A stretch of 61,789 bases of DNA from Leeuwenhoekiella aestuarii (GTDB lineage Bacteria; Bacteroidota; Bacteroidia; Flavobacteriales; Flavobacteriaceae): the NCBI RefSeq assembly GCF_004104055.1, contig NZ_QOVJ01000013.1, positions 1 to 61,789 on the forward strand, in the 5' to 3' direction. The position numbers and the translations under genes are program-made. Position 1 is the first letter of the stretch; every line of letters starts with the position of its first letter. Positions 18,344-53,283 of the stretch are shown piece after piece. Under the pieces are notes generated by a model. It saw nothing but the letters and a program-made list of their open reading frames with translations. It searched no databases and was not told the origin of the DNA.

Positions 18344-18424
18344 AGTATTTATAAATACTACTAAGCTTAGCTTAAATGCATACGATCACTGATTTTACTG
18401 TTTTAATTTTGTAAAAAACTTGTT

Positions 18425-29791: not shown

Positions 29792-29794
29792 CTT
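29750..29794 (+). repeat. left attachment site (attL), 45-bp direct repeat
   Basis: Forty-five bases, starting TTCATAACCCGGAGGTC at the anticodon loop and ending CGCTACTT after the tRNA. They recur exactly at 37454-37498. After one mismatch, another 15 bases (29796-29810) are also shared. This is the pattern of site-specific insertion into a tRNA 3' half by a tyrosine recombinase. Confidence 0.93.
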
Positions 29795-37453: not shown

Positions 37454-37498
37454 TTCATAACCCGGAGGTCGGGGGATCGTGCCCCCCTCTCGCTACTT
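37454..37498 (+). repeat. right attachment site (attR), 45-bp direct repeat
   Basis: An exact copy of the tRNA 3' half at 29750-29794, without the 5' half, so it is not a functional tRNA. It is followed by a hairpin GGCAGT...ACTGCC with a T-run (37507-37535), which differs from the hairpin after the intact tRNA. Confidence 0.93.
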
Positions 37499-38222
37499 AA
37501 TAATCAGGCAGTTATACTAATGTATGACTGCCTTTTTTATTGAACTATAATTTTTAAAATGATCTCCTTTAATCAGTTTGAATCTGTTCAAATCAAATTT
37601 AATTTCCCTCTAATTTTCTTTTAAAATAGTTCTCTTACTTTTCTATACAAGCTAAAAAATCTTGTATTCTAATTCCAATCATTCTACTTTATCTCAGTTT
37701 CTAGATTTAGAAATTGCTTTTTAGCTCTATAAAGAGAATGTACTGTTCAGTTTAATACTTCGCAGGATTGCCTTTGTCGACAGACAGGCTTGCCACGAAG
37801 TAGTGTACTCGCCCAGAAAAAAGTCCTCCCTGTCGAAAAAGCTGGTGATTACACAGAAATATCCCACAGCTACTTATACGAATTAATTTCTATCAAGTTT
37901 TTAAAAATTACTATTTATTCAGGTGCTATTTTTTTTATAGACATTTTATACTGTTTACAGTGGGCTAGACTCATAGGTTAACGTAAAAAAAGACTTCGAT
38001 TACAAAAATCTAACTGCTCATCAATAATGTTAATTTAACTTCTCCCTACTATTACTATCGTTATAGCAGTTTTCTTTAATTTAAATTAACATAGCTGTGT
38101 AAAATTCTTCACTTTCTTCAACTTTCGTTAAGAATTTCTTAAAGCCTAAAAATTTACATATGGTCACTTTTTAACCACATTTGCGATTGATTGTTTACTA
38201 ATATTAATAATTAATCCAAATA
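37499..38222. mobile_element. decayed left end of a second, related element
   Basis: This segment resembles the left end of the intact element: a hairpin just after the repeat, an AT-rich stretch, the TATACAAGCT...CTTGTATTCTA segment (37645-37671 against 29969-29995), an AGCTCT...GTTCAG segment, then a broken HTH gene. It is the scar of an earlier insertion at the same tRNA. The last 200 bases lead into the SusC gene and probably hold its promoter; CACATTTG near 38175 is a partial -7 match. Confidence 0.75.
37799..37981 (+). pseudogene. broken copy of the excisionase-like HTH gene
   Basis: The reading frame gives LAQKKVLPVEKAGDYTEISH and SYLYELIS, against LAQKKVLTIEEACDYTGMSR and SYLYKLTS in the intact gene at 30320. 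A scrambled tail, AIFFIDILYCLQW, follows, against LIYFDIDLLNEW. The first 20 or so codons are missing and replaced by unrelated sequence, and the middle is altered. It is non-functional by all appearances. Confidence 0.8.
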
Positions 38223-41200
38223 ATGAAAAAAGTAATTTATGTAACACACCTTACCCTATTTCTCCTAAGCGCTATGTTATTTGCTCAAGATAGAACGCTT
38301 CAGGGTACTGTAACAGACACTAACGACATGCCTCTACCGGGCGCCAGTGTTGTGGTAAAAAATACTACAATAGGTGTAGTCACAGATTTTGACGGAAATT
38401 TTACAATCAATATTCCTGAAGATGAGAATATTATTGAGGTTACCTTTATGGGATTTAAATCTCAAGACATTGATGTTCTAGGTAAATCTACATTGACTAT
38501 AGTTCTAGAGGAAGATGCACAAAGCCTTGATGAAGTTGTAGTAACTGCTCTTGGGATTAAAAGAGAAACTAAAAAACTGTCGTACGCTGTACAAAAAGTT
38601 GACGGCGACGAACTTGCCGAAGCCAAAGAAACGAACGTGGTAAACTCACTTTCGGGTAAAATGGCCGGTGTACGGGTTACAGGTGGTAACAGTGGTGTAG
38701 GTTCTAGCTCACAGATCATCATCCGTGGTGAAAACTCATTAAACCCCAGCCCTAATGCAAATTCACCGCTCTTTGTAGTTGACGGAATCCCTATCAACAA
38801 CAACATAAACAATGCAGGTGGAGATGGTAATATGGGTGTTGACTTTGGTAACGGAGCAATGGATATCAATCCTGATGACGTTGCAGAAATGACCGTGCTT
38901 AAAGGTCCTAATGCAACTGCGCTTTATGGTTCTCGAGGTGCAAATGGTGTGGTTCTGATCACAACCAAATCAGGTAAAGGCACTAAAGGTATAGGCGTTT
39001 CTATCAATCACAATACTACTTTTGAAACCCTCTTAACCTTACCGAAATATCAAAACGAATACGGGCAAGGATCTAACGGTCAATTTGCATTTAACGATGG
39101 AGGTCAAAATCGTTCTGTAACAGGTGGGATTAATGATCATGTTGATGAAAGCTGGGGACCTGCACTTAACGGACAATTAATGCCACAACACGACAGCCCT
39201 ACCACAAGCGGGTTTAGAGCCGGTGATGTAGATCTTCGACCGCGTAATGCAGACGGAACATTTGCTGATGAAATTATCGCCACCCCATTTATTGCACATC
39301 CTGATAATATTAGAGATTTCTTTGAAACCGGATTTACAATGAGCAATAACGTCGCTTTAACGGGGGCTAATAAAGATGGAAACTTTAGAGTGTCATTTAC
39401 AGATTTAAGCAGTGAAAGCATTGTACCCAACTCTAATTTCAAAAGACGTACCTATGCGATTAACGGGGCTTACAATTTAACAGATTGGTTAAAGGTGAGC
39501 GCTTCGATGAATTATATAAATTCTAACTCAGATAACCGTCCTAATAACTCTTACGGTACCGAAAATGTGATGTACTTATGGATTTGGTTTGGTCGTCATA
39601 TTGATATGAATGGGCTAAGAGATTACTGGCAACCGGGACTTGAAAACTCTCAGCAGTTTAACTACAACTACAATTATCATGACAACCCGTTCTTTACAGT
39701 ATATGAAAATACAAACTCGTTTAACCGGGATCGTGTTATTACCAATATGCGTGCAGATCTTCAACTAGCAGATGGGTTAGACTTGATGTTCCGTACAGGT
39801 TTAGATTATTCTAATGAGCTCGATATGCGTAAAAGAGCTTACTCTACACAGCGATTTCCTAAAGGGCAATATCGGGAAGATTACACTTATGCTCAGGAGC
39901 AGAATACCGACTTCTTACTGTCTTATACCAAAACGCTTACTGAAGATTTTGATTTAGGAGTTTCAGTGGGTGCTAATCACAGGGTGGCTAAAAATCGCTA
40001 TCAGCGTATTAGTGCTAACTCGCTTTCAATTCCTGCCATCTATAATTTTGGTAATGCTGCAGAACCGCTTACGACAAGCGATTATGACAGTGAGTTCAGA
40101 GTTAATAGTGCGTACGCCTTTGGTAATATCGCTTATAAGAATTATTTATTTTTAGACTTAACCGCTCGTAACGACTGGTCTTCAACACTTCCGGAAGATA
40201 ACAACAGCTACTTCTACCCTTCTGCAGGTATAAGTGCTATTCTTTCTGATATGTTTGAAATGCCGAAAGCCATCAGTTTTGCTAAACTAAGAGCAGGATA
40301 TGCTGTGGTAGGTAATGATACCAACCCCTACAATCTGGCAGCTACGTATGGTTTTGGAGATACCTTTAATGGATTCTCAAGAGTGTATTCTCCATCAGAA
40401 TTGAAAAATTCTGATTTGAAACCTGAAAAAACCAACTCGATAGAATTAGGTGCAGATGTTCGCTTCTTCGGTAATCGTCTGGGACTTGATGTTGCAGTAT
40501 ATCAGTCTACTACTAAAAATCAGATTATATCACTTCCGGTTTCTAATACCTCAGGATTCAGTTCTCGTGTAATTAACGCTGGGGAGGTACAAAACCGAGG
40601 GCTTGAAATCACTTTGAATGCCACTCCTCTACGCACAGATAATTTCCGCTGGAATTCTTCCGTTAATTTTACAATGAACCGTGGGAAGGTTGTAGAGCTT
40701 ACAGAAGGCTTAGATTTTTATACAATTAAAAACAATTACCTCACCGTGGGGGCTGCTATTGGGGAGCGCATTGGAGATCTGTATGGAACCGGCTTTCAGA
40801 AAGTAAACGATCCTGATAGCGAATATAACGGGCAGTGGATTATAAACCCTGATTCTGGACTACCTATCGTTGACAACGAATTGAGAAAACTAGGTAATTA
40901 CAGTCCGGATTTTATGGTTGGTTTTCAAAACAGCTTTCAATATAAAAACTTCAACTTCAGCTTTTTGTTTGACTGGAGACAAGGGGGGGAGTTTCACTCC
41001 CGCACCGTTGCCATTGGTGGTACAACCGGTATGTTAGATTTTACAGTTCCAGGTCGTGAAACAGGTATTGTTGCAGCAGGTGTCATTGCAAATGCTGATG
41101 GGTCCTATACCCCAAATACTAAGAATGTTTCAGCCTCTAATTACTACTCGCACGTATATAACAGAAGCAATGAAGAGAGTTCCATGTTTGATGCTACTTA

Positions 41201-41438
41201 CATCAAATTACGCGAAGTTAAACTGGGGTATAATCTGCCTAAAAAATGGTTTGATACCATTCCCTTCTCTTCAGCTACGATCTCTCTAGTAGGAAGAAAT
41301 CTGGCGCTATGGACCGAAAACGACCACGTAGATCCAGAATCTATTTCATTTTCCGGAGGATCTATTGTTCCTGGTGTAGAAGATATGGCGCTGCCCAGCA
41401 CCCGTAGTTTTGGTGTAAACGTTAATCTAGAATTTTAA
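38223..41438 (+). CDS. SusC/RagA-type TonB-dependent outer-membrane transporter
   Basis: A 1071-residue TonB-linked porin. The signal peptide ends LFAQ (residue 22). A carboxypeptidase-D-like regulatory domain follows (about 25-97, LQGTVTDTNDMPLPGASVVVKNT). Then come the TonB-box region LDEVVVTALGIKRE, the plug (SLSGKMAGVRVTGGNSG, IIIRGENSL, PLFVVDGIPI, VLKGPNATALYGSRGANGVVLITTK) and the barrel ending in Phe. It imports oligomers in complex with its SusD partner, 11 bases downstream. The genes that follow imply a phosphonate- or phosphate-ester cargo rather than an ordinary glycan. No SusR, hybrid sensor or sigma/anti-sigma pair adjoins it. Confidence 0.96.
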   Translation: MKKVIYVTHLTLFLLSAMLFAQDRTLQGTVTDTNDMPLPGASVVVKNTTIGVVTDFDGNFTINIPEDENIIEVTFMGFKSQDIDVLGKSTLTIVLEEDAQSLDEVVVTALGIKRETKKLSYAVQKVDGDELAEAKETNVVNSLSGKMAGVRVTGGNSGVGSSSQIIIRGENSLNPSPNANSPLFVVDGIPINNNINNAGGDGNMGVDFGNGAMDINPDDVAEMTVLKGPNATALYGSRGANGVVLITTKSGKGTKGIGVSINHNTTFETLLTLPKYQNEYGQGSNGQFAFNDGGQNRSVTGGINDHVDESWGPALNGQLMPQHDSPTTSGFRAGDVDLRPRNADGTFADEIIATPFIAHPDNIRDFFETGFTMSNNVALTGANKDGNFRVSFTDLSSESIVPNSNFKRRTYAINGAYNLTDWLKVSASMNYINSNSDNRPNNSYGTENVMYLWIWFGRHIDMNGLRDYWQPGLENSQQFNYNYNYHDNPFFTVYENTNSFNRDRVITNMRADLQLADGLDLMFRTGLDYSNELDMRKRAYSTQRFPKGQYREDYTYAQEQNTDFLLSYTKTLTEDFDLGVSVGANHRVAKNRYQRISANSLSIPAIYNFGNAAEPLTTSDYDSEFRVNSAYAFGNIAYKNYLFLDLTARNDWSSTLPEDNNSYFYPSAGISAILSDMFEMPKAISFAKLRAGYAVVGNDTNPYNLAATYGFGDTFNGFSRVYSPSELKNSDLKPEKTNSIELGADVRFFGNRLGLDVAVYQSTTKNQIISLPVSNTSGFSSRVINAGEVQNRGLEITLNATPLRTDNFRWNSSVNFTMNRGKVVELTEGLDFYTIKNNYLTVGAAIGERIGDLYGTGFQKVNDPDSEYNGQWIINPDSGLPIVDNELRKLGNYSPDFMVGFQNSFQYKNFNFSFLFDWRQGGEFHSRTVAIGGTTGMLDFTVPGRETGIVAAGVIANADGSYTPNTKNVSASNYYSHVYNRSNEESSMFDATYIKLREVKLGYNLPKKWFDTIPFSSATISLVGRNLALWTENDHVDPESISFSGGSIVPGVEDMALPSTRSFGVNVNLEF

Positions 41439-41449
41439 GAAAACACACG

Positions 41450-42892
41450 ATGAAAACAAGTAATATAGTTCAGATTCTTGTACTGGCCTGCCTCTTAATT
41501 ACAGGCTGTACCGATAATTTTGAAGAAATCAACACCAATCCTAATGCTCCTGAAACGGTAAGCGCAAACCTGCTCACCGCTACGGTAACTTCAGAAATTA
41601 CCCGAACACTCACTCAGGAAGGGTATAGCGATGGAAACTCCATCACGCAATTGATGGCTAAAAATAATTTTCCGGGTTTTGCTCAATTTGATTGGGGCGA
41701 TCAGGGAATGTGGAACTTTTTCTACGGAATTCTTCCGGAAATAGATGATATTCTTCAGATATCACGAAATGAAGAAACCCAGAATAGCACCTACGAAGGG
41801 ATTGCACTTACCTTACGCGCACTTTGCTTTGCAAATCTTACCGACCTATATGGGAACGTTCCGTATTCTGAAGCTCTAGCGGGAGATATAGAGGGTATTT
41901 TTACGCCGGTTTATGATTCACAGGAAATGATTTACAATGGCGTACTTCAGGATTTAGCAAATGCTGATGTTGCTTTGGCCGCAAATCAAAGTATTAGTGG
42001 TACTACAGGAGATGTTATTTATGATGGAGATCCGGCTCAATGGAGAAAATTGGCGAATGCTCTAAGATTGCGCTATCTCTTACGCATCTCCAAACAACGC
42101 GATGTCTCTCAAGAAATGCAAGCTATTGCAAGTACAGGAAACTACATCAATACTAACGCAGATAATGCAACACTTACCTACAGCGGAACGTCTAATACAG
42201 ACTCGTGGCCACAAAGTACAGGCCGTATAGGTGGTTTTGATGAAAAGAGTTTATGCGATACTGCTTTAGAATACTTCAACACCTTTAACGATCCGAGATT
42301 AGATATCTGGTTTGACCGAAATAGTGAAGGCAAATGGGTAGGCATGCCTATTGGATTGAATCAGGATAACGCACGGGCTTTTGATGATGCAAACAGTCCC
42401 AGTCGTCTGGATGTAGATCTATTCTATTATTCCAGAACAGATGCTCAGGCCTATATTATTAAAAATTCTGAAGTACAGTTTATTCTTGCAGAAGCTGCAG
42501 AGCGTGGTATCATTTCAGGTGATGCTGAAGCTTATTACAATGCAGGAGTACGGGCAAGTTTATCGTATTGGGGTGTTGACGATACAACTATAACAACATA
42601 TCTGGCTCAGCCAGCTGTTTCCTATAACGGATCTTTAGAGCTACTATTGACTCAAAAAACCATAGCTCTCTGGAATGTAGATTATCAGGGATGGATGAAT
42701 TATAGAAGAACCGGACTTCCAGCTTTAGAACCGGGACCAGATACGCTTAACGGAGCATTCTATCCTGTACGTTTCCTGTACCCTTCATCTGAACAAACTC
42801 TGAATACTGCTAACTATCAGAATGCAGTGAACGCGATGGGTGGTGATAACATCAACGTCAAAGGATGGTGGGAAACCGGAACCCGTTATTAA
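41450..42892 (+). CDS. SusD/RagB-type substrate-binding lipoprotein
   Basis: A 480-residue surface lipoprotein with lipobox LLITGC (Cys20), then the acidic NFEEINTNPNAPETVSANLL start of the SusD-like type 2 family. TPR-like helices include EGIALTLRALCFANLTDLYGNVPYSEAL. The C-terminus is QNAVNAMGGDNINVKGWWETG. It caps the SusC barrel and binds the ligand. Tight linkage with SusC and the downstream phosphoesterase lipoprotein suggests that all three work at the outer membrane. Confidence 0.94.
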   Translation: MKTSNIVQILVLACLLITGCTDNFEEINTNPNAPETVSANLLTATVTSEITRTLTQEGYSDGNSITQLMAKNNFPGFAQFDWGDQGMWNFFYGILPEIDDILQISRNEETQNSTYEGIALTLRALCFANLTDLYGNVPYSEALAGDIEGIFTPVYDSQEMIYNGVLQDLANADVALAANQSISGTTGDVIYDGDPAQWRKLANALRLRYLLRISKQRDVSQEMQAIASTGNYINTNADNATLTYSGTSNTDSWPQSTGRIGGFDEKSLCDTALEYFNTFNDPRLDIWFDRNSEGKWVGMPIGLNQDNARAFDDANSPSRLDVDLFYYSRTDAQAYIIKNSEVQFILAEAAERGIISGDAEAYYNAGVRASLSYWGVDDTTITTYLAQPAVSYNGSLELLLTQKTIALWNVDYQGWMNYRRTGLPALEPGPDTLNGAFYPVRFLYPSSEQTLNTANYQNAVNAMGGDNINVKGWWETGTRY

Positions 42893-42960
42893 TTCAATTA
42901 TTAAAAAATCAGGTTAGGTTGCTCATTGACTTGTGCAACCTCAACTTGTTTTATTTCAGC

Positions 42961-44631
42961 ATGAAACATAAAAATTATCTTTTTAAAAGCCTCCAAGCAG
43001 GTTTGCTGATTGCAACTGCATTCCTGAGCTCCTGCGCAACAGAAAGCAAACCAGATCTGGGAATTAAACATATCATTGTAATAGGAGTCGATGGCATGAG
43101 TCCGGACGGAATTAACAAAGCTCAGACCCCGGTTATTGACAGTCTGGTAAAATATGGAGCATCTACTTTTGAAGCGCGTGCAGTGCTTCCTTCAAGTTCT
43201 AGTTCTAATTGGGCCAGTATGATTATGGGTGCAGATACTGAGCAACATGGCATTACTTCTAACGGTTGGGAAGCTAACGACCACACCTTGCCGGCTGTAG
43301 TTTCAGCGCACGACAGCAGATTCCCTTCCATTTTCACTTTATTTCACGATCAAAAACCAGAAGCTCACGTAGGTACTATTTACGATTGGGATGGTTTTGG
43401 CAGATTATATAATACAGAAGATGTTGCTTTTGACATCAACGGAGAACACGAAGACGGTACCACACAAGATGCCATTGCCTATATAACAGAACATAAACCC
43501 GATTTTACCTTTATTCATCTGGATCACGTTGACCATGTAGGGCATAGCGAAGGACACGGGACTGAATCTTATTACCAAGCTGTTGAAAAAGCAGATCATT
43601 TAATAGGATCTATTATAGCATCAACGAAAGAAGCTGGAATTTTTGATCAAACCCTATTCATCATATCAGCTGACCACGGTGGCTTAGGCAAAGGACACGG
43701 TGGTGAATCCCTGAATGAAGTCAACATTCCCTTCATACTATATGGAGCCGGAGTGAAAAACGGATATACGATTGAAGAAACCGTATATCAGTATGATAAT
43801 GCAGCCACTATTGCTTTTATCGCCGGTTTAGAAACACCACAAGCATGGATAGGGAGACCTGTTAAAAGTGCTTTTGTAGGGTTTGAAAAACCAGTATTGC
43901 GCTACAAAAAACAAAAACAACTCCTCGCTCCTGTTTTACTTCCTAAAAATGGACCGTATGCTCCTTCCGGCGGATTATTCACAACGTCTAATATTGAAGT
44001 TAAATTAAACAACCCCAACACAACAGGAAGTATTTATTATACTCTGGATGGTTCTGATCCTTCAGAAAAAAACGGATTAGAATATACCGCTCCGTTTACA
44101 GTAGACCGTACCACACTGGTGCGTGCCATAGTTGCCAAAACGGGGAAAGCTCCCAGCACAATTTCCTCAGGTAATTACCGATTGATTCCCTCCAAAAAGA
44201 AACCTGGAGTTTTATTTCGTATTTATCCCTTAGAAAATCTTACTTCCTTACCAGACTTCAGAAACCTCAAAGCATCACAAACCGGGAATATTATGGAGTT
44301 TGAAAGCGGCATCCTTGACAGTCTGGACTCCGCAGCAAGTACTGCCATAGTTTTCAATTCCGTATTAAAAATAGATACAAGCGGCAGCTATACTTTTTAT
44401 ATCAACAGTGATGATGGCAGCAAACTTTATATTGATGAAAAACTAGTGGTTGACAATGATGGGGATCACGGCGTACAGGAGCGAAGCGGCACTATAAATC
44501 TAAATTCAGGTGCACATACTATTAAAATTGAATATTTTAACGGTGGCGGGGGTTACTATCTGGATGCGCAATACAAAGGACCGGGTATTGGCAAACAAAT
44601 TATTCCGGCAGGTAAATTGAATCTCAACTAG
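42961..44631 (+). CDS. NPP-type phosphodiesterase lipoprotein with chitobiase-like and PA14 domains
   Basis: A 556-residue lipoprotein (lipobox Cys25 in FLSSC). The alkaline-phosphatase-superfamily domain (about 35-300) shows metal ligand Asp44 in IGVDGMS, a Ser-rich nucleophile loop VLPSSSSSNWASMIMG, HLDHVDHVGH and SADHGGLGKGHGG. These fit nucleotide pyrophosphatase / type I phosphodiesterases. A chitobiase C-terminal-like domain (about 325-405, GSIYYTLDGSDPSEKNG) and a PA14 domain (about 410-555, YTFYINSDDGSKLYIDEKLVVDNDGDH) follow, both usually carbohydrate-binding. The frame extends upstream into the SusD gene, but the Met at 42961 starts the signal peptide. It probably cleaves phospho- or phosphono-diesters on a glycan or lipid. 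Confidence 0.86.
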   Translation: MKHKNYLFKSLQAGLLIATAFLSSCATESKPDLGIKHIIVIGVDGMSPDGINKAQTPVIDSLVKYGASTFEARAVLPSSSSSNWASMIMGADTEQHGITSNGWEANDHTLPAVVSAHDSRFPSIFTLFHDQKPEAHVGTIYDWDGFGRLYNTEDVAFDINGEHEDGTTQDAIAYITEHKPDFTFIHLDHVDHVGHSEGHGTESYYQAVEKADHLIGSIIASTKEAGIFDQTLFIISADHGGLGKGHGGESLNEVNIPFILYGAGVKNGYTIEETVYQYDNAATIAFIAGLETPQAWIGRPVKSAFVGFEKPVLRYKKQKQLLAPVLLPKNGPYAPSGGLFTTSNIEVKLNNPNTTGSIYYTLDGSDPSEKNGLEYTAPFTVDRTTLVRAIVAKTGKAPSTISSGNYRLIPSKKKPGVLFRIYPLENLTSLPDFRNLKASQTGNIMEFESGILDSLDSAASTAIVFNSVLKIDTSGSYTFYINSDDGSKLYIDEKLVVDNDGDHGVQERSGTINLNSGAHTIKIEYFNGGGGYYLDAQYKGPGIGKQIIPAGKLNLN

Positions 44632-44640
44632 ACGTGCACT

Positions 44641-45996
44641 ATGGAGAATAAACTTTCTAAAAACGAACTCCTTGTTGAAGGAGATATCAACCGGTCTGAA
44701 GGTCGAAAAAAATGGTTAACAGAAGAAGTTGATGCCACGACAAAAAAACTCTTAGAAAAAGATGCGCAGTACTTTTTACACCAGGCGCTATCTACGCCTT
44801 GTATGGACGTACTGGCCGATGCTCAGGGTCCGTTTATTACCAACACTTCTGGTAAAAACTATTTTGATTTTCACGGAAACAATGTACACCAGCTGGGTTT
44901 TTCACATCCTAAACTCATTGAAGCACTCAAAAATCAGTTAGACCAACTTACCTTTTCTACCCGAAGATACACCAACGAAACGGCTATTCATTTTGCCGAA
45001 AAACTAACAAGCCTAACTCCCGGTTTAGATAAAATACTGATGACTCCTAACGGAAGTTCTGCAGTTGGGATCGCGCTTAAACTGGCTCGCGCGATAACCG
45101 GTAAGTTTAAAGTAGTTTCCTTCTGGGATTCGTTTCACGGGGCATCGCTCGATGTAGTGAGTGTTAGCGGTGAAGCGGTTTTTAGAGAACACATGGAACC
45201 TTTGATGCCCGGTGTAGAACGTATTCCCCCTCCCATTACCTATCGCGGTATTTATGAGAATAACGAAGATAAAGCGATCGAATATTTGGAGTACATTTTG
45301 GCAAAAGACAATCAGATTGGAGCTTTTTTAGCAGAAACCGTGCGCAATACTGATGCTCAAATTCCGTCTAAAAAATTTTGGAAAGCAGCCCGAGCACTTT
45401 GTGATCAATACGGGATTCTTCTAATTCTTGATGAGATCCCAATCGCATTAGGCCGAACCGGAAAACTATTTGCTTACGAACATTTTGACATTATACCAGA
45501 CATTCTTTGTTTAGGAAAAGGACTTGGAGGTGGTATTATTCCTCAGGCAGCGATCGTTACTAAAAAGGAATACGACCGGTTTAACCACATTTCGATGGGG
45601 CATTATACCTTTGAAAAAAGTCCTATGGGTGCAGCTGCAGCGCTAACAACATTGCAAATTATTGAAGAAGAACATCTGCTGGAGCACGTCGTTTACTTAG
45701 AAGGTATGATGCAGGCTACCCTGAAGGATTTCCTGCATAAATACAACATCATTGGCGATATTAGAGGTCTTGGTTTACTCTGGGGTATAGAACTCGTAAA
45801 GGATCGCACAACTAAAGAAAAAGCTACCGCTGAAGCAGAAGCGATTATGTATGAATGTCTTAAAAACGGACTGAGTTTTAAAGTCTCTAAAGGCAATGTT
45901 TTACAACTCTGCCCGGCACTCACCATAACATCCACGCAGCTTGCAGAAGCTCTGGTTATTTTAGAAAATGCACTACAAAAAATCTCAAAACCATAA
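44641..45996 (+). CDS. class III PLP enzyme, candidate (R)-1-hydroxy-2-aminoethylphosphonate ammonia-lyase (PbfA-like)
   Basis: A 451-residue fold-type I PLP enzyme. The PLP Asp is D264 in LILDEIPIALGRTG and the Schiff-base Lys is K293 in LCLGKGLGGGIIPQ. Unlike ordinary class III aminotransferases, the N-terminal region reads YFLHQALSTPCMDVL and YFDFHGNNVHQLGFSHP. To my memory this is the pattern of PbfA, an ammonia-lyase that makes phosphonoacetaldehyde from 1-hydroxy-2-aminoethylphosphonate. The phosphonatase-like and TIGR03364 genes downstream support this. It is cytoplasmic (no signal). A 2-aminoethylphosphonate transaminase is the alternative. Nine bases follow the phosphodiesterase gene. 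Confidence 0.72.
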   Translation: MENKLSKNELLVEGDINRSEGRKKWLTEEVDATTKKLLEKDAQYFLHQALSTPCMDVLADAQGPFITNTSGKNYFDFHGNNVHQLGFSHPKLIEALKNQLDQLTFSTRRYTNETAIHFAEKLTSLTPGLDKILMTPNGSSAVGIALKLARAITGKFKVVSFWDSFHGASLDVVSVSGEAVFREHMEPLMPGVERIPPPITYRGIYENNEDKAIEYLEYILAKDNQIGAFLAETVRNTDAQIPSKKFWKAARALCDQYGILLILDEIPIALGRTGKLFAYEHFDIIPDILCLGKGLGGGIIPQAAIVTKKEYDRFNHISMGHYTFEKSPMGAAAALTTLQIIEEEHLLEHVVYLEGMMQATLKDFLHKYNIIGDIRGLGLLWGIELVKDRTTKEKATAEAEAIMYECLKNGLSFKVSKGNVLQLCPALTITSTQLAEALVILENALQKISKP

Positions 45997-46001
45997 AGAC
46001 A

Positions 46002-47585
46002 ATGAAACACATCATAGTTCTTAGCCTGTTTATTATCAGTTTTTGCACCCATACGCAGGCCCAACAAAATAGTTTTCTGGTACATCCTTATTTGCAGGAT
46101 GCAGAGCCCACATCAATTCGTATAAAATGGGAAACCGAGTTTAAGGGAGAAAGCATCGTAGAATGGGGCTTAACAGCAAAACTGGGAAACAAAACTACAG
46201 GTACCTCCAGTAAAGTGAATTTTGGAGAATCGCGCTTACATGAAGTTCAGCTTACCGGTTTAGAGCGCTTCACCACCTATTTTTACCGAGTTAAAACCGG
46301 AAAACTTCGATCTGATATTCTTCAGTTTAAAACCCCTCCATTTTCTGGTGAAGCAGCCTCCTTTAATCTGATCGCTATGAGCGATATGCAAATAGACCGC
46401 AGTCAACCAGATAAATTCAGTGAAGTCGTCAATGAAGGTATTCTCAAGTATCTGGAGCAGCAATTTGACGGAAAAGTTCCAGACAATTTAGCTTTGGTGA
46501 TGATTCCCGGGGATCTTGTGGCTCAGGGAAGCAATTATGAGCAGTGGCAAACCGATTTCTTCAGACCTTCAGAAAAACTTTTCTCACAAGTTCCTGTATA
46601 TCCCGTCCCCGGAAATCACGAACAAAACGCTCAGTTTTTCTTTAAATACTTCAGCCTGCCCGAAAACGGAGACCCTGCTTATTCGGAGCACTGGTGGTAC
46701 AAAGATTATGGTAACATACGAATTATTGGGTTAGATTCTAATGAAGGGTATCGCGATATGCGACAACAATACGAATGGCTTGAACAGGTATTGAAAGACA
46801 CCGAAACTGAAGAAGACATTGATTTTGTTTTTGCTCAACTACATCATCCGTATAAGTCAGAATTATGGATTCCGGGGGAAGAAGAAACCACCGGAAAAGT
46901 GGTTAAGATGCTTGAAGCTTTTTCAGATAAAACCGGTAAACCCAGCGTTCATTTTTTTGGTCATACACACGGGTATTCCCGTGGACAATCACGCGATCAC
47001 AATCACTTGTGGGTAAATGTAGCATCAGCTGGTGGTTCTATAGACAACTGGGGCGAGTTTGAAGGTCGCGATTATGACGAATTTACCGTTACCCAAGATG
47101 AATATGGTTTTGTGATGATAAATGTAGATCCCAATCCTGCAGATCCTAAGATCAGTCTCAAACGCATCAGCCGCGGTAATGTTCAACATCCTAAAAACAA
47201 TGCGGTAACTGATAGTATCACTGTTTATAAACTGAATCAAAAGCCCGATGCACCTGTTGGGGTCTCTCCTAAAAAAGAAACTGTAGACATCACTGCTATC
47301 ACGCTAAAAGCGTCTGCCTTTAGCGGAGGAAGAGTTTCTAGTAAACATACCGCATCGCACTGGCAAGTGTCTACAACACCCGACTTTGAAAAACTGATTA
47401 AAGACAGTTGGAAACAAAATGAAAATTGGTATTACAAAGAAAACAGGCAAAAGGGTGATGACCTTACAGATGAAGATTTATCCCGCTTAAAACCCGCAAC
47501 TACCTACTATTGGCGAGTTCGGTATCGGGATCAATATCTGGGATGGAGTGACTGGTCTGAAACCCTGACTTTTAAAACTAAATAA
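46002..47585 (+). CDS. exported purple-acid-phosphatase-like metallophosphoesterase
   Basis: A 527-residue exported enzyme with a signal peptide ending THTQAQ. An N-terminal fibronectin-like domain (about 22-110) is of the purple-acid-phosphatase N type. The calcineurin-like core (about 120-390) has AMSDMQI (Asp128), IPGDLV, VPGNHEQN, AQLHHPYKSE and FFGHTHGYSR. A second beta domain (about 410-527) ends YWRVRYRDQYLGWSDWSETLTF. The first motif has Gln in place of the usual His (DxQ). It starts five bases after the PLP gene. It likely hydrolyses phosphate or phosphonate monoesters in the periplasm. Confidence 0.85.
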   Translation: MKHIIVLSLFIISFCTHTQAQQNSFLVHPYLQDAEPTSIRIKWETEFKGESIVEWGLTAKLGNKTTGTSSKVNFGESRLHEVQLTGLERFTTYFYRVKTGKLRSDILQFKTPPFSGEAASFNLIAMSDMQIDRSQPDKFSEVVNEGILKYLEQQFDGKVPDNLALVMIPGDLVAQGSNYEQWQTDFFRPSEKLFSQVPVYPVPGNHEQNAQFFFKYFSLPENGDPAYSEHWWYKDYGNIRIIGLDSNEGYRDMRQQYEWLEQVLKDTETEEDIDFVFAQLHHPYKSELWIPGEEETTGKVVKMLEAFSDKTGKPSVHFFGHTHGYSRGQSRDHNHLWVNVASAGGSIDNWGEFEGRDYDEFTVTQDEYGFVMINVDPNPADPKISLKRISRGNVQHPKNNAVTDSITVYKLNQKPDAPVGVSPKKETVDITAITLKASAFSGGRVSSKHTASHWQVSTTPDFEKLIKDSWKQNENWYYKENRQKGDDLTDEDLSRLKPATTYYWRVRYRDQYLGWSDWSETLTFKTK

Positions 47586-47595
47586 AGATTCCGAT

Positions 47596-48639
47596 ATGCA
47601 TATTAGAAAAGTAATGCTACTGCTCCTTCTGGCTGGCTTGAGTGTTTTTAAAACGCAAGCTCAAAACAAAGAAGACCAAAAAGTCATTTTGATCACATTA
47701 GACGGATTTCGCTGGCAAGAACTGTTTACCGGTGCCGATCCTAAACTCATTAGCAACCCTGAATATGTTCATGATACCACAGCTTTAAAGTCCAAATTCT
47801 GGCGGGAAACCAAAGCTGAACGCCGAGAAGCCTTATTACCTTTTATTTGGAATGAGGTAGTCCATCACGGGGAAATTCACGGAAATAGAGAATCTGGAAG
47901 CAAGGTTAACCTAACCAACACGATGTGGTTTTCTTATCCCGGTTATAACGAGATCCTTACAGGTAAAGCAGATGATAAAAATATCAAGAGTAATGATAAG
48001 ATCTATAACCCTAATGTAACCATCCTGGAAGAATTAAATAATACTTCAAAATACAAAGGCAAGGTTGCTGCTTTTACCAGTTGGGATGTTTTCCCATATA
48101 TTATTAATGATAAACGCAGTGGTATTCCTGTAAATGCAGCTTTCGATCCGGCTACAGATACGCCTTTATCAGACCGGGAAATCTTCCTCAATAAATTACA
48201 AAAAGAGATACCGAGTCCGTGGGGAAGTGTACGTCTGGATGCGTTTACTCACAATTATGCCTTAGCATATATGCAAAAAAATCATCCAAGTCTGGTTTAT
48301 ATAGCCTACGGCGAAACAGACGATTTTGCACATGATGGGGAATATGATGCCTATTTGAATTCGGCACACACCACAGACACAATGCTGAAAGAGGTTTGGG
48401 AATATGTTCAGGCCGATGCATTCTATAAAGATCAAACTACCCTGATCATCACTACAGATCACGGGCGTGGAACAGAACCTCTAGAAACCTGGAAAAGTCA
48501 CGGAAGCGATATCAAAGGTGCAGATCAGACCTGGCTCATAATTTTCGGAGCTGGTGCTGATCAAAAAGGAGCTATTCAAAACGAAGAACAGATCTATACT
48601 ACTGAAGTTGTTAAACACATCAAGCAAAAATTAAATTAG
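47596..48639 (+). CDS. alkaline-phosphatase-superfamily hydrolase
   Basis: A 347-residue exported protein with a signal peptide ending FKTQAQ. Alkaline-phosphatase-superfamily features are LITLDGFRWQELFTGAD (metal Asp36), FSYPGYNEILTG (nucleophile loop), GETDDFAHDGEYDAY (Asp and His ligands), ITTDHGRG and SHGSDIKG. Superfamily members cleave phosphate mono- or diesters, sulfates and phosphonate monoesters. It is the third phosphoesterase of the locus and differs from the NPP-type enzyme. Ten bases separate it from the metallophosphoesterase gene. Confidence 0.82.
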   Translation: MHIRKVMLLLLLAGLSVFKTQAQNKEDQKVILITLDGFRWQELFTGADPKLISNPEYVHDTTALKSKFWRETKAERREALLPFIWNEVVHHGEIHGNRESGSKVNLTNTMWFSYPGYNEILTGKADDKNIKSNDKIYNPNVTILEELNNTSKYKGKVAAFTSWDVFPYIINDKRSGIPVNAAFDPATDTPLSDREIFLNKLQKEIPSPWGSVRLDAFTHNYALAYMQKNHPSLVYIAYGETDDFAHDGEYDAYLNSAHTTDTMLKEVWEYVQADAFYKDQTTLIITTDHGRGTEPLETWKSHGSDIKGADQTWLIIFGAGADQKGAIQNEEQIYTTEVVKHIKQKLN

Positions 48640-48790
48640 TTTACAAATAAGAAATAAAATAAAACATTAAAACTGTAAATTTTAATATAAGTAAACTTTT
48701 AAATAGATTTGTTACTGCTTGTTTATTTATATTTTAAACTGCGGTCGGGGGTTTATTCTTAAACTTTTGACCAGATTATTAAAACCCACT

Positions 48791-50068
48791 ATGCCCATCA
48801 AAAAACAAGATCTTGCATTTATTAGTCGTGCGTCTCTGGCTGCATTTGGTGCGTATTTCTGTATGTATGCATTTAGAAAACCTTTTGCAGTTGCAACTTT
48901 TGAACACCTAAGTGTTCTGGGAATCGATTATAAAATCCTGCTCATTATCGCTCAGGTTTTGGGTTATATGCTCTCCAAATTTATTGGGATCAAAGTAATT
49001 TCTGAATTAAAGTCAAAGCAACGCCTCACCTATTTGTTAGCACTCATAGGTATTTCTGAAATTGCGCTCCTCCTTTTTGGTTTTGTTCCGCAGCCCTATA
49101 ATATTTTATTCATGATTCTCAATGGTCTGCCTTTGGGAATGATTTGGGGCATTGTGTTTTCCTACTTGGAAGGACGAAAATTCACCGAAATACTAGGAGT
49201 CATTTTATGCACCAGTTTTATTGTTTCAAGCGGCGTGGTAAAATCTATTGGTTTATATGTTATGGCCTTCTGGGAAGTTTCCCAGTTTTGGATGCCTGCA
49301 GTAACCGGAGCTTTATTTCTCATCCCTTTAATGTTTTTTGCCAGACTTTTAGAAACGATCTCCCCTCCTACAGCTGAAGACGAGTCCTTACGCGTTGCCC
49401 GCGTTCCTATGAATAAAACAGCACGTAAAGAAGTGCTCAAGCAATTTGCATTACCACTTTTTATTCTGATACTATTCTACGTTAGTTTAACTGCTTTTAG
49501 AGACCTCAGGGATAATTACGCCCGAGAGCTATGGGATGATCTGGGTTATGCCGGGGATATTGCGGTATACAGCACCTCTGAGCTGGCTGTAGCGCTTCTT
49601 GTTTTGATTATTCTGGCTTCTGTCTATGCGATAAAAGATAACCTCAAAGCCTTGCTCACCTATCATGGTATATTACTAATCGGTACGTTTTCGGTAGGTA
49701 TTGCAACATTTTTATTACAGTCTGAAATACTCGATCCGTTTTATTGGATGGTAATCTCCGGTTTTGGTTTGTACATCTGCTACGTCCCGTTTAACGCCTT
49801 ATTTTTTGACCGGTTTATCGCTGCATTTCGCATAAAGGGAAATGCCGGCTTTCTAATTTATCTTGCAGATGCTTTTGGATATCTGGGGAGTATGGGTGTT
49901 CTGCTTTATAAAAACTTCGGGATGAACGCACGATCATGGCTGTCCTTTTTTATCAACGGAGCCTACCTACTTTCTGTACTGGGTACCTGTAGTGTTATCC
50001 TTTCTTATTTCTATTTAAAAAACAAACACCGCAACACCAATCTTAATGTTTTAATTTATGAAAACTAA
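48791..50068 (+). CDS. DUF5690 / MFS-type transporter
   Basis: A 425-residue inner-membrane protein with about 12 hydrophobic segments, organised as two halves with a central loop (about 195-225). The sequences SRASLAAFGAYFCMYAFRKPFAVATF and SFLFDRF-like FNALFFDRFIAAF resemble the sugar-phosphate / glycerol-3-phosphate branch of the major facilitator superfamily and the DUF5690 group. The frame extends 24 codons upstream, but MPIKKQDLAF is the sensible start. It overlaps the FAD oxidoreductase gene by 11 bases. It is the only candidate in the locus for aminophosphonate uptake across the inner membrane, so that role is inferred. Confidence 0.83.
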   Translation: MPIKKQDLAFISRASLAAFGAYFCMYAFRKPFAVATFEHLSVLGIDYKILLIIAQVLGYMLSKFIGIKVISELKSKQRLTYLLALIGISEIALLLFGFVPQPYNILFMILNGLPLGMIWGIVFSYLEGRKFTEILGVILCTSFIVSSGVVKSIGLYVMAFWEVSQFWMPAVTGALFLIPLMFFARLLETISPPTAEDESLRVARVPMNKTARKEVLKQFALPLFILILFYVSLTAFRDLRDNYARELWDDLGYAGDIAVYSTSELAVALLVLIILASVYAIKDNLKALLTYHGILLIGTFSVGIATFLLQSEILDPFYWMVISGFGLYICYVPFNALFFDRFIAAFRIKGNAGFLIYLADAFGYLGSMGVLLYKNFGMNARSWLSFFINGAYLLSVLGTCSVILSYFYLKNKHRNTNLNVLIYEN

Positions 50069-51212
50069 ATATGACCTTCTTATCGTAGGTGGAGGTGTTC
50101 TGGGTACTTTTCATGCCTACCATGCTTTAAACAAAGGGTTGCGTGTCGCTATTTTGGAGCAAAGCCTGATGCCACAAGGTGCAACCACGCGTAATTTTGG
50201 TCAGGTGGTACCTTCAGGAATGAATACCAAGTGGCAAAACTATGGTCGGGAAAGTCTGCGTATTTACCAAGAAATTCAAGAGCTTTTTGATATTACGATT
50301 CGTCAAAATGGTTCTGTATACCTCGCATCTAATCCTGAAGAACTGCAGCTTATTGAAGAACTGGCGGTGATCAATAAAACGAATAACTATACTTCTAAGC
50401 TACTCACCAAAGCAGAATGTTTGAAAAAATATCCCGGTTTACGAGCAAATTATGTCAAAGCAGGCTTGTTTTTTCCTGATGAAGTTACGGTAGAGCCGCG
50501 CACGATGATTCACCGTTTACAACAATTTCTGGTGACTCAAAAAAAACTGGATTTATTTACAAATACAAAGGTCATACACATTGATCAAAGCACTGATGAA
50601 GTTGCCATCACTACTGCAGCTGGAAACACTTTTAAAGCTGCTCAAGCATTAATCTGTAACGGAAGTGATTTTAAAACACTTTACCCACAGCTTTTTGCAG
50701 ATAGTGACTTGCAGCTCTCTAAATTGCAAATGCTACAAACTAAACCACAGCAAAATTATAAACTTCCCGGTTCTATTTTAACTGGCTTGTCTATCCGTCG
50801 TTACGAAGCCTATTATGAATGTCCCTCATTTAAAGAAATAAAAGCTAAAGAAGATCCACATAGTTTAGAGAAGAAATGGGGCGTTCATATTCTGTTTAAA
50901 CAAGCTGTAGATGGTTCTGTTATTTTAGGGGATTCTCATGAATATGCTGATGCTGATCGTATGGAAGATTTAGGGTATGACCTGAATATGGATATAGACA
51001 ATTTTATGATCGCTGAAGCTCAAAAAATCATTGACCTGCCTACCTATGAAATTCAGGATCGCTGGTATGGGATTTACTCCCAATGTAAGACACAAGATAT
51101 TTTTTTGAAAACTTTAGGAGAGCGCATTCACATCGCTACCGGAATTGGAGGAAAAGGAATGACCGGAAGCGCAGGATTCTCAAAAGAACACCTCAACACG
51201 ATACTTAATTAA
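50058..51212 (+). CDS. TIGR03364-type FAD-dependent oxidoreductase
   Basis: A 384-residue flavoprotein of the glycine/D-amino-acid oxidase superfamily. It has Rossmann LLIVGGGVLGTFHAYHAL, the substrate-side segment GATTRNFGQVVPSGM, and a C-terminal FAD loop IATGIGGKGMTGSAGFSKEH. TIGR03364 proteins are known to co-occur with phosphonatase-like hydrolases and to deaminate or dealkylate aminophosphonates oxidatively, producing phosphonoacetaldehyde. It overlaps the transporter gene and sits six bases before the hydrolase gene, a tight catabolic trio. Confidence 0.88.
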   Translation: MKTKYDLLIVGGGVLGTFHAYHALNKGLRVAILEQSLMPQGATTRNFGQVVPSGMNTKWQNYGRESLRIYQEIQELFDITIRQNGSVYLASNPEELQLIEELAVINKTNNYTSKLLTKAECLKKYPGLRANYVKAGLFFPDEVTVEPRTMIHRLQQFLVTQKKLDLFTNTKVIHIDQSTDEVAITTAAGNTFKAAQALICNGSDFKTLYPQLFADSDLQLSKLQMLQTKPQQNYKLPGSILTGLSIRRYEAYYECPSFKEIKAKEDPHSLEKKWGVHILFKQAVDGSVILGDSHEYADADRMEDLGYDLNMDIDNFMIAEAQKIIDLPTYEIQDRWYGIYSQCKTQDIFLKTLGERIHIATGIGGKGMTGSAGFSKEHLNTILN

Positions 51213-51217
51213 AACGT

Positions 51218-51901
51218 ATGAATACTATAAAATTGGTCGTTTTTGATATGGCAGGCACCACCGTAAATGAAAATAATATTGTGTACAAAACCGTACAGAA
51301 AGTCATCAATGACTTAGGTTACACGGTAAGTCTTGATGCTGTTTTGGAGTTTGGTGCCGGTAAGGAAAAACATCAGGCGATTACCGATGTTTTACAAAAC
51401 TGTACACATTGTACTGCTGTACAAGAAGCAGCAGCAGCTGCTTTTGTGGCCTTCAAACCCGAATTAGAAGTCGCTTATGACACGCTCGAAATAGGCACTT
51501 TTGCCGGAATGCTTCCTTTCTTTAAGAAGCTGAAAAATCACAATATTAAGGTGGTTCTCAATACCGGTTATGATTTTAAAACCGCAACAAAATTACTGGC
51601 TAAGCTAGAGTGGCATGTAGGTGAAGAAATAGATATGCTCATCACAGCCGATGCTGTTGAAGTTGGAAGACCGGCCCCTGATATGATTCACAAAGCCATG
51701 CAGCAGTTTGGGATTACCGATCCTTCTCAGGTGCTCAAAGCAGGAGATTCTCAAATAGATATCATAGAAGGAAAAAATGCCAACTGTGGTTTAACCATAG
51801 GTGTTTTAAGCGGAGCACAAACTAAAGAACAATTAGAAGCTGCAAAGCCAGATTACATTCTTAAGGTAATAACTGAGCTTGAAGGCATATTATTGAATTA
51901 A
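51218..51901 (+). CDS. TIGR03351 phosphonatase-like hydrolase
   Basis: A 227-residue HAD-superfamily enzyme. The nucleophile motif VVFDMAGTTVNENN has Asp10 and Ala12, the Asp-x-Ala arrangement of phosphonoacetaldehyde hydrolase (PhnX). GAGKEKHQAI places Lys49 where PhnX has its Schiff-base Lys. Motif II is VVLNTGYDFKTA, the VEVGRPAPDMI segment has the Arg-Pro typical of PhnX, and motif III is KAGDSQIDIIEGKNA. It should cleave the C-P bond of phosphonoacetaldehyde to acetaldehyde and phosphate. It is the last gene of the forward cluster. Confidence 0.9.
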   Translation: MNTIKLVVFDMAGTTVNENNIVYKTVQKVINDLGYTVSLDAVLEFGAGKEKHQAITDVLQNCTHCTAVQEAAAAAFVAFKPELEVAYDTLEIGTFAGMLPFFKKLKNHNIKVVLNTGYDFKTATKLLAKLEWHVGEEIDMLITADAVEVGRPAPDMIHKAMQQFGITDPSQVLKAGDSQIDIIEGKNANCGLTIGVLSGAQTKEQLEAAKPDYILKVITELEGILLN

Positions 51902-51930
51902 CCCAGTCTTTTAAAATGTTGAAAGCACGC

Positions 51931-52512
51931 TTAGCTTTCAATGTCTTTTAAATAAAAGTAAAGAACAAGCATAGCAGTAGGGACCTCACTGCGGTTGATG
52001 GGTACATGTGGAATTCTCCCGTCGAAAAATATGGAGTCCCCTTCGTGCAAAGTTACTTCCTCATCACCAATGTTGTAAACACAACTTCCAGAGAGCATAT
52101 ACTTAAATTCATAGGCATCGGTTTCTACTTTACTACGTTCAGAACCGGGTTGAATTTCAAGCAAAACTGCCTCAAAAGCTATAGAAGCAAGTGATTTGCC
52201 AAAAATAGATTTATACTGAAAGCCTTTAGCATCATCTTCTTTTTCTAGTAAGGAATGTTCTGCTTTGCGAGAAACAATAAAAGAAGTTTTTCCGCTTTGC
52301 GGAAGACTATTAAAAAAAGCAGCTACTTCGATCTCTAAAGCATTGATGATATTTAACAATACCGGCAACGAGGGTATTGTCCTTCCGTTTTCTATACGCG
52401 AAATGAGTCCATTACTTACATCTGCTTGGGTTGCAACCGTACTAATGGTAAATCCTTTATCTTTTCTGATTTCTCGAATGCGCTTCCCGATTCCAATTAT
52501 GTAGTCTTCCAA
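51931..52512 (-). CDS. XRE-cupin transcriptional regulator
   Basis: A 193-residue regulator. The XRE helix-turn-helix (about 8-65) contains IGKRIREIRKDKGFTISTVATQADVSNGLISRIENGRTIPSLPVLL. A cupin domain (about 105-190) contains PGSERSKVETDAYEFKYMLSGSCVYNIGDEEVTLHEGDSIFFDG. It senses a small metabolite through the cupin. It is convergent with the phosphonate genes, 29 bases after the hydrolase stop, and is the obvious candidate for their control. Confidence 0.9.
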   Translation of the reverse strand: MEDYIIGIGKRIREIRKDKGFTISTVATQADVSNGLISRIENGRTIPSLPVLLNIINALEIEVAAFFNSLPQSGKTSFIVSRKAEHSLLEKEDDAKGFQYKSIFGKSLASIAFEAVLLEIQPGSERSKVETDAYEFKYMLSGSCVYNIGDEEVTLHEGDSIFFDGRIPHVPINRSEVPTAMLVLYFYLKDIES

Positions 52513-53283
52513 ATCTTTAGTTTTTACTATTTGTAAATATCCAAAATGTTTTAGGATTCGGTTGACTTCCTGGCATTTTTTGAATCAATCTATATATCAA
52601 TTTATTCTAAACAGCACATTGCCACGTTTTAAAAAAACTATATAGATCAGATAGCAGGGTAGCCCTCCATTTTAACTACCTGCTTTAAGGTAGTCTGGTT
52701 CAAATATACTTCTGGGCTATACTGAGGTGAAACTAATTTTATACCATATTCACCCACTGAAAATGTGGTAAAGTGTGGTTGGAGTGTGGTAGCACTAGGC
52801 TTTTTACTGCTCCAAGATGACCAGAAGTGATGAAGGAAAGCAGTACTAAAAAAGACCTAACTGTATCTGAATTCGTACTAGAACAGCAGTCCAGGTTCTA
52901 AAAGCAGAGGTGTCAAATTTGATATTACGGTATTTCACAGAACAGAGTCTTATTAGTTCTCCATGCATATCATTACAGACATAATTTTAGAGTTGACCTC
53001 TGAATTAAAATTAATTGAAAAGGATTTAAACTTTAAAAAGTTTGAGGGCATTGCGGAATTGGAAGAACAAATAAAAGGACGAATCAATGAACTGAGGTAA
53101 AATACAACGCTGCATCTGCTTTAAATTAGAAGACCTATCTATGCTTTGCTAGAATCTGTAGTCACAGACACGAACTATTTTATTTAATACTTTTAGGCCT
53201 ATCCTTTGGGTAAAACAGACACATAATTCTCATAGAAGGGTAAATCTGATTTAGGTTGGATACACAAAATTCAAGAAGTTTAG
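52513..53283. other. gene-poor spacer
   Basis: No large frame. There is a small hairpin ACTACC / GGTAGT (52673-52692) and a possible 45-codon gene at 52963-53100. Otherwise I see no repeat, RNA gene or third copy of the tRNA repeat that would mark an island boundary. The sequence looks like decayed accessory DNA. Confidence 0.4.
52963..53100 (+). CDS. possible 45-residue helical protein
   Basis: The frame starts MHIITDIILELTSELK and continues with an amphipathic, charged pattern (LIEKDLNFKKFEGIAELEEQIKGRINELR written in two parts: LIEKDLNFKKFEG, IAELEEQIKGRINELR). It would be one or two helices, perhaps a coiled coil. Composition is coding-like, unlike the surrounding DNA, but there is no recognised family. 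Confidence is low. Confidence 0.35.
   Translation: MHIITDIILELTSELKLIEKDLNFKKFEGIAELEEQIKGRINELR

Follow-up and report, generated by a model that had tools for sequence, protein, structure and literature searches.

The window analysed here is a stretch of 61,789 nucleotides from Leeuwenhoekiella aestuarii (contig NZ_QOVJ01000013.1, from an assembly of 4.43 Mb in 30 contigs). At 38223-52512 it carries ten open reading frames (ORFs) that quite likely form a SusCD-type phosphonate-ester utilization locus, in which an outer membrane SusC/SusD pair, of a kind usually associated with sugar polymers, is combined with predicted exported phosphoesterases, a putative inner membrane transporter, enzymes of aminophosphonate breakdown and a regulator. 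The locus is real and conserved, and very probably serves the use of aminophosphonates. An earlier note, made from the letters of the window, had proposed such a SusCD-coupled locus for aminophosphonate esters; the linkage of SusCD to phosphonate genes, both among PbfA loci and in a phylum-wide sample, supports this. Phosphonate uptake has mainly been studied with small free phosphonates and ATP-binding cassette (ABC) importers. SusCD-like complexes for organophosphorus, with phosphonate-degrading enzymes beside them, were already proposed by Lidbury et al. (PMC8115612). What is new here is the defined make-up of the locus, the assignment of DUF5690, the exchange of PbfA and PhnZ-like genes in SusCD loci, the receptor lineage and the operator. 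None of the search results examined in the literature describes such a locus, most subscription papers being out of reach.

Organization of the locus

The features of the locus are, in window coordinates:

38153-38208, no strand: operator-like pair at the SusC promoter, sites at 38153 (9/14) and 38194 (12/14 to TTTACTANTAGTAAA), 41 bp apart
38223-41438, +: SusC-type TonB-dependent outer membrane transporter (TIGR04056, 693.9 bits, cut-off 368)
41450-42892, +: SusD-like lipoprotein, SusD-like_2 (PF12771, 326 bits)
42961-44631, +: protein of the nucleotide pyrophosphatase/phosphodiesterase (NPP) type, phosphodiesterase family, with CHB_HEX (chitobiase-C) and PA14 domains and a lipoprotein-like signal (PF01663, 96.8 bits)
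44641-45996, +: PbfA (NF049939, 689.8 bits, cut-off 525)
46002-47585, +: purple-acid-phosphatase-type metallophosphoesterase, signal peptide by eye (PF16656, PF00149)
47596-48639, +: alkaline-phosphatase-superfamily enzyme, signal peptide by eye (PF01663, 28.5 bits, cut-off 23; PF01676; PF00884; weak matches above the Pfam cut-offs)
48640-48695, no strand: operator-like pair at the DUF5690 promoter, sites at 48640 (11/14) and 48681 (12/14), 41 bp apart
48791-50068, +: DUF5690 protein, putative inner membrane transporter with a major facilitator superfamily (MFS) fold in a predicted model, proposed aminophosphonate carrier (PF18943, 548.7 bits)
50058-51212, +: PbfD-type flavin adenine dinucleotide (FAD) oxidase, expected substrates N-methyl-2-aminoethylphosphonate (N-methyl-AEP) and 2-aminoethylphosphonate (AEP) (TIGR03364, 439.3 bits, cut-off 285.1)
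51218-51901, +: PhnX-like putative phosphonoacetaldehyde hydrolase (TIGR03351, 220.0 bits, barely above the cut-off of 218.9)
51931-52512, -: putative XRE-cupin regulator (helix-turn-helix and cupin-type matches, all below cut-offs)
52523-52537, no strand: operator-like site at the regulator's own promoter, TTTACTATTTGTAAA (13/14)

The ORFs and their family matches bear out the ten-gene set, its order and its place as given in the earlier note, with nine genes on the + strand. The tight spacing described there holds for most genes, but is interrupted by a gap of about 150 bases (48640-48790) before DUF5690 that contains two operator-like sites. The regulator, on the - strand, is convergent as described there. 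From alignments, the NPP ORF, which opens at 42865, probably starts at about 42961, and the DUF5690 ORF, open from 48719, at about 48791. The SusC and SusD genes are adjacent and on the same strand, as in SusCD loci, and stand beside phosphomono- and phosphodiesterases, as in phosphate utilization system (PUS) loci. No catalytic glycoside hydrolase or lyase was matched in a Pfam scan of eight of the ten proteins (all except SusC and the regulator) or in an NCBIfam scan of all ten. Accessory domains are present, namely CHB_HEX and PA14 on the NPP protein and Ig_Rha78A_N on the metallophosphoesterase. The window PbfA shares 96% identity with its L. polynyae counterpart.

Linkage of SusCD to phosphonate genes

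Eighty PbfA loci were taken from named genomes (L-numbers are locus labels), and their ORFs were called and clustered. Linkage was counted in the 74 Bacteroidota loci, with the six Vibrio and Photobacterium loci set aside; the count is of genomes, not of independent events. A SusC-SusD pair on the same strand lies no more than 10 kb upstream of PbfA in 43 of the 74, where about 8 would be expected by chance at the density of the source genome (38 SusC genes above cut-off), taking no account of the non-independence of species. Three loci (L044, L060 and L068) start too near PbfA to reveal a pair, and in L062 the ORF filter put an opposite-strand ORF in place of PbfA. The pair was found in 43 of 59 PbfA loci with an NPP gene and in none of 15 without one (p 1.6e-7). 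NPP directly follows SusD in 42 of these 43 loci, the other being Kriegella L045, with two genes between them. Among Dyadobacter loci the pair occurs in 2 of 15 (L063 and L074), where it is placed between PbfD and NPP; what the remaining Dyadobacter loci retain is a core of PhnX-like, PbfD, NPP, PbfA and DUF5690 genes, incomplete in individual cases. SusCD thus has the look of an add-on to a core locus.

A second sample consisted of 395 genomes spread evenly over the Bacteroidota, from which 59 stretches of up to 20 kb were fetched and their genes labelled; some of these end at contig ends (e.g. L117, L134 and L136). PbfA was found in 16 genomes (15 above cut-off), TIGR03364 in 33 (32 above cut-off) and DUF5690 in 42; DUF5690 and TIGR03364 occur together in 30 (Fisher 6e-32 over the 395 genomes). 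Linked SusC and SusD were detected with profiles from the PbfA-linked clusters, which may miss unlike pairs. A SusC-SusD pair was present in the stretch of 16 of 32 PbfD genomes, the source genome (which also has SusCD) being left out of the 33, against about 5.8 expected when the SusC density of the source genome is applied to every genome (p 4e-5). The pair occurs in 16 of 32 DUF5690 loci with phosphonate genes and in 0 of 13 without (p 0.0014). Three further PbfD genomes (L104, L107 and L109) have a long ORF beside DUF5690 with no SusD; the two of these that were scanned are TonB receptors. The earlier note had named rare linkage of SusCD in relatives as grounds for giving up its proposal, which survives the comparison in both samples.

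Exchange of catabolic genes behind SusCD

Other SusCD loci have a PhnZ-like HD oxygenase instead of PbfA. Of the 59 fetched stretches, 14 contain such a gene; SusCD accompanies it in 13 of them and PbfA in none. The best PDB match of the one HD protein tested was PhnZ, ahead of TmpB. TIGR03276 matched the six of the 14 HD proteins that were scanned, three above the cut-off and three slightly below; these also match TmpB and hydroxymethylphosphonate dioxygenase models, below cut-off. PhnZ and PbfA both use (R)-1-hydroxy-2-aminoethylphosphonate (R-HAEP), and their mutual exclusion in phnWX and phnWAY clusters was noted earlier (PMC8154272). Their common substrate points to R-HAEP as the compound used, a suggestion tempered by the action of other HD-family members on other phosphonates, as the model names indicate.

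Other variants were seen. In Kriegella L045, SusC, SusD, NPP and PbfA are followed by PhnA, PhnY and PhnW, the last three all above cut-off, and there are in addition a PgtP/UhpC/GlpT-like permease and an FAD oxidoreductase, both below the cut-offs of their best models. This permease may be the AepP reported in Kriegella aquimaris (PMC8316502). L144 combines PhnWYA, DUF5690 and SusCD, while L131, L133 and L135 have PhnW, NPP, PbfA, PhnA, PhnY, PbfD and an AepP-like gene, with no DUF5690.

Cytoplasmic enzymes

The reactions of PbfA, PbfD and the PhnX-like protein are those expected from the biochemistry of their families. No PhnW was found above cut-off in the source genome (best match 51.7 bits, cut-off 360.8). 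The positions of the PhnX nucleophile and Schiff-base lysine are kept in the TIGR03351 protein when it is aligned with PhnX structures: a lysine falls on the lysine in the cap, taken as the Schiff-base lysine; one PhnX chain among the matches has arginine there. The canonical PhnX equivalog, TIGR01422, gives 96.4 bits with this protein, short of its cut-off of 220. PbfA is an R-HAEP ammonia-lyase yielding phosphonoacetaldehyde, an activity known for the Vibrio splendidus enzyme (PMC8154272). Among TIGR03364-type PbfD enzymes, the characterized PbfD2 oxidizes N-methyl-AEP and AEP, and pbfD2 genes lie mostly in clusters without phnW (PMC10590968), with which the result for PhnW is consistent. 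The substrates of these enzymes are better known than the earlier note stated (PMC8154272, PMC10590968).

Putative exported esterases

Profile searches matched the NPP protein to NPPs. With its structure model, Foldseek ranked Bacteroides sulfatases of the same superfamily best, nucleotide pyrophosphatases/phosphodiesterases from rank 7, and ENPP7, an alkaline sphingomyelinase, at rank 19. In 27 loci an extra metallo-beta-lactamase-type gene stands between NPP and PbfA (e.g. L006:8740-10014 and 26 others); for the L006 protein, the PDB search ranked pneumococcal teichoic-acid phosphorylcholine esterases best. A PF04185 phosphoesterase occurs in L037, L115 and L126. Such enzymes would together suit lipids or glycans to which small zwitterionic head groups are esterified.

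DUF5690 and the inner membrane step

The earlier note held that no ABC importer is present and that TonB-dependent capture takes its place. No PhnD- or AepX-type binding protein was found above cut-off in the genome: there was a single PF12974 match, at 19.8 bits below the cut-off of 27, and none to PF13343, the ABC search being confined to these two families, to which the claim of absence is accordingly limited. The claim of replacement was not borne out. ABC importers work at the inner membrane, so SusCD, which is located in the outer membrane, was rejected as a substitute for one; DUF5690 is the candidate at the inner membrane and likely the carrier there. A model built from 20 sequences (predicted local distance difference test score, pLDDT, 87.9) has an MFS fold, as do members of the organophosphate:phosphate antiporter (OPA) family. 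Its top Foldseek match was the glucose-6-phosphate transporter G6PT, with GlpT at rank 29 and non-OPA MFS proteins between; no OPA chain was among the PDB profile matches at E up to 1. All 20 sequences have R29 and K63, and the spacing of these two residues resembles that of an arginine and a lysine of GlpT; judged by eye, the R-K ... S-K-F spacing is similar in the two proteins.

A DUF5690 tree drew on 9 of the 36 rows from the 80 PbfA loci and the window; on it the label 'linked' needs 5 changes as against 11.8 in shuffles. DUF5690 was not named in the literature searched. Outside the phylum, the control genome of the proteobacterium Caulobacter vibrioides encodes a DUF5690 protein above cut-off.

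Lineage and probable exchange of the receptor

Across loci, identity with respect to PbfA identity gave Spearman coefficients of 0.77 for NPP and 0.72 for the metallophosphoesterase, but of 0.40 for SusC and 0.30 for SusD. Loci L017 and L019 illustrate this, with identities of 94% for PbfA, 80% for NPP, 51% for SusC and 35% for SusD. Since SusC and SusD track PbfA far less closely than does NPP, the receptor pair has likely been exchanged inside an otherwise standing locus.

A tree of 64 SusC proteins contains a clade of 28, made up of 26 of the 27 linked rows and 2 of the 37 paralogs from the source genome. The clade has a support of 97 in the Shimodaira-Hasegawa-like approximate likelihood ratio test (SH-aLRT), which was the only support measure in this quick method. 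The tree used 13 of 44 PbfA-linked rows and omitted 4 of the 17 sampled SusCD loci (L115, L126, L128 and L144), whose SusC is shorter than 800 amino acids. The sole linked row outside the clade (B_L118_11) belongs to a second pair in its stretch. One of the two clade paralogs has a PF01663 phosphodiesterase gene directly upstream; in the case of the other, a metallophosphoesterase gene follows SusD at a distance of two ORFs. Most likely the clade is a branch of SusC proteins that handle organophosphorus, with the phosphonate-linked pairs nested inside it. The clade paralog pairs of the source genome lie in L200 (G000:C1:176000-195000) and L201 (G000:C4:208000-227000). About 800 bases downstream of a further SusCD pair, in L205 (G000:C1:506000-525000), is a gene for a PHO4 phosphate transporter.

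Regulator and operator-like sites

The dyad TATTT-N2-AAATA was found in 62 of 80 promoter regions of the window and L003-L048, a count that includes intergenic regions common to divergent genes, whereas no dyad exceeded 5 in five shuffles. The wider palindrome given with the features was written by eye. It scores 12-13/14 at three promoters in the window (38194, 48681 and 52523), the first two with a weaker partner 41 bp upstream. The 41-bp spacing is seen again in L003, L004 and L005, where both promoters have it, and in Flavobacterium L029 at the SusC promoter, with sites of 14/14 and 13/14; the first three loci belong to the genus of the window and are therefore weaker evidence than the last. 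In Kriegella L045 a 14/14 site is centered 56 bp upstream of PhnA. In Flagellimonas and its kin, the regulator and SusC diverge around sites of 10-13/14. In the window and L003-L048 there were 156 sites of 11/14, against 130 in mononucleotide shuffles, and 29 of 12/14 (19 between ORFs), against 13.7; sites of at least 13/14 numbered 13, all between ORFs, against 1.3. Isolated weak sites thus carry little meaning. In the 4.43-Mb genome the pair pattern has matches with no mismatch at 38153 and 48640 alone, the two places from which it was derived; with two mismatches there were four further places, and 3 and 3 in reversed controls.

Proposed model and known systems

In the model that we favor, a TonB-energized SusCD complex would bind and import its presumed ligand, a macromolecule or oligomer bearing esterified aminophosphonates, and the exported phosphoesterases (the NPP lipoprotein, the purple-acid-phosphatase type and the alkaline-phosphatase-like enzyme) would release the aminophosphonate. 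Passage of this product through the inner membrane would fall to DUF5690, an MFS protein that among solved folds comes closest to an organophosphate antiporter. Once in the cytoplasm, R-HAEP would be converted by PbfA, and N-methyl-AEP and AEP by PbfD, to phosphonoacetaldehyde, which the PhnX-like hydrolase would cleave to acetaldehyde and phosphate. The XRE-cupin protein would bind the palindromes at the SusC, DUF5690 and its own promoters.

Parts of this scheme have precedents. The PUS loci with PusCD of Flavobacterium likewise have a SusCD-like pair adjoining phosphoesterases, but the accessible part of that paper describes no locus of this make-up, nor does it name PbfA, PhnZ, PbfD, DUF5690 or an XRE-cupin operator (PMC8115612). 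The phnWX-pbfA and phnWAY-pbfA clusters also combine PbfA with a phosphonoacetaldehyde-cleaving enzyme and do not have PbfA and PhnZ together, whereas the window has PbfD in place of PhnW, SusCD and exported esterases in front, and DUF5690 as proposed transporter (PMC8154272). In pbfD-phnX clusters, too, a TIGR03364-type oxidase neighbors a hydrolase of the PhnX type and PhnW is often missing, but in the window SusCD and esterases are joined to them and the PhnX partner is of the TIGR03351 type (PMC10590968). AepP, a GlpT-like AEP permease, resembles DUF5690 in its MFS fold and its place in the pathway, and the Kriegella locus has an AepP-type permease instead of DUF5690; the two have no significant sequence similarity (PMC8316502).

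A wider and more tentative proposal, to which we give somewhat less than an even chance, is that of a phylum-wide class of SusCD receptors for phosphonate-decorated glycans or lipids, with DUF5690 as a new family of aminophosphonate antiporters and with SusCD pairs swapped to match different polymers. An example of such a ligand would be the amoebal phosphonoglycan with AEP and HAEP: Acanthamoeba polysaccharides were the first source of HAEP, in a phosphonoglycan also containing AEP, and the compound has been reported in lipids of Bdellovibrio stolpii (both cited in PMC8154272). Should SusCD systems harvest polymer- and lipid-bound aminophosphonates, a pool of marine organic phosphorus would have found its owner, R-HAEP would be a commoner nutrient than its scant chemical record implies, and DUF5690 would acquire a function open to testing. 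Some of the SusCD pairs now attributed to glycans might then call for re-reading, perhaps the Maribacter forsetii pair among them.

Alternative explanations

Several observations weigh against a dedicated phosphonate-ester system. Sixteen of the 59 PbfA-NPP loci lack SusCD (12 from Dyadobacter, 3 of 5 from Arenibacter and one on a 4-kb contig), so that SusCD is an optional module, and 16 of the 32 sampled PbfD genomes have no pair in the stretch. The 17 SusCD stretches of the phylum sample include an alkaline-phosphatase-like gene in 11 and an NPP match in only 5, and the tie of NPP to SusCD is therefore a feature of PbfA loci. The exclusion of PbfA by HD proteins is imperfect in Vibrio L077, where PbfA and a weaker HD match (87 bits) lie about 7 kb apart in one 21-kb stretch. 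DUF5690 is also present in 13 fetched loci without recognized phosphonate genes, and the matches to its fold include sialin, GLUT and FLVCR1 as well. Two hhalign comparisons of DUF5690 with AepP-like proteins were not significant, and homology to AepP by sequence was rejected, leaving the fold and the residue spacing. No operator of at least 11/14 precedes DUF5690 in Flavobacterium L029, and none of 12/14 precedes SusC in Kriegella. Finally, a SusCD pair of Maribacter forsetii was strongly raised on laminarin relative to a casamino-acid control and was expressed on glucose too, a pattern that does not look phosphonate-specific (PMC11345257). This most induced SusC and its SusD were given a laminarin role, but their neighbors are an alkaline phosphatase, an FAD oxidoreductase and a phosphonatase-like hydrolase, and the size of the change rests on missing values set to 0 (PMC11345257). 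From the neighbors named, the pair may be orthologous to that of the window, in which case induction by the growth demand for phosphorus is an alternative to the laminarin role.

An ordinary glycan locus, for laminarin for example, that adjoins phosphonate genes by chance seems very improbable to us. The PA14, CHB_HEX and Ig_Rha78A_N domain types are also met in glycoside hydrolases, but the locus proteins scanned gave no catalytic match of that kind, the expression of the Maribacter pair extends to glucose (PMC11345257), and the linked SusCs stand apart from 35 of the 37 other SusCs of the source genome. General scavenging of phosphate esters is rather unlikely; here SusCD would take phospholipid head groups or phosphodiesters, and the phosphonate enzymes would be a side branch for the C-P bonded fraction. 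The three phosphoesterases come from broad families, the two clade paralogs of the source genome adjoin phosphoesterase genes, and inorganic phosphate (Pi)-induced PusCD loci with phosphodiesterases are known in Flavobacterium (PMC8115612), all of which would fit. However, linked SusCD accompanies phosphonate enzymes in the PbfA, PhnZ-like and PhnWYA variants alike, and is absent from all 13 DUF5690 loci that lack phosphonate genes. It is also improbable that the phosphonate genes serve to provide nitrogen or to dispose of toxic HAEP, and not to provide phosphorus. An XRE-cupin regulator with its operator-like sites fits induction by substrate, and phosphate-independent, substrate-induced use of AEP occurs in other bacteria (PMC8316502), but exported esterases and a dedicated outer membrane receptor exceed the needs of detoxification, and phosphate is liberated whatever the purpose.

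Surroundings of the locus

About 7.7 kb with a tyrosine integrase gene (36090-37292, - strand) lie between a tRNA-Met gene (29718-29792) and a 41-bp sequence identical to the 3' end of that gene (37456-37496). This region is probably an integrated element, which stops about 700 bases short of the SusC gene. It also contains an AAA_14/DUF4143 ATPase gene at 34970-36085. In L. blandensis L005 the same tRNA end is found at about 18000-18350, just beyond the regulator end of the locus; the locus thus adjoins the tRNA on a different side from one species to another. Downstream in several Flagellimonas, Allomuricauda and Muricauda loci (e.g. L006:14162-18511) are genes for a Crp-like regulator, a sulfate permease, a metallo-beta-lactamase-rhodanese protein and a rhodanese.

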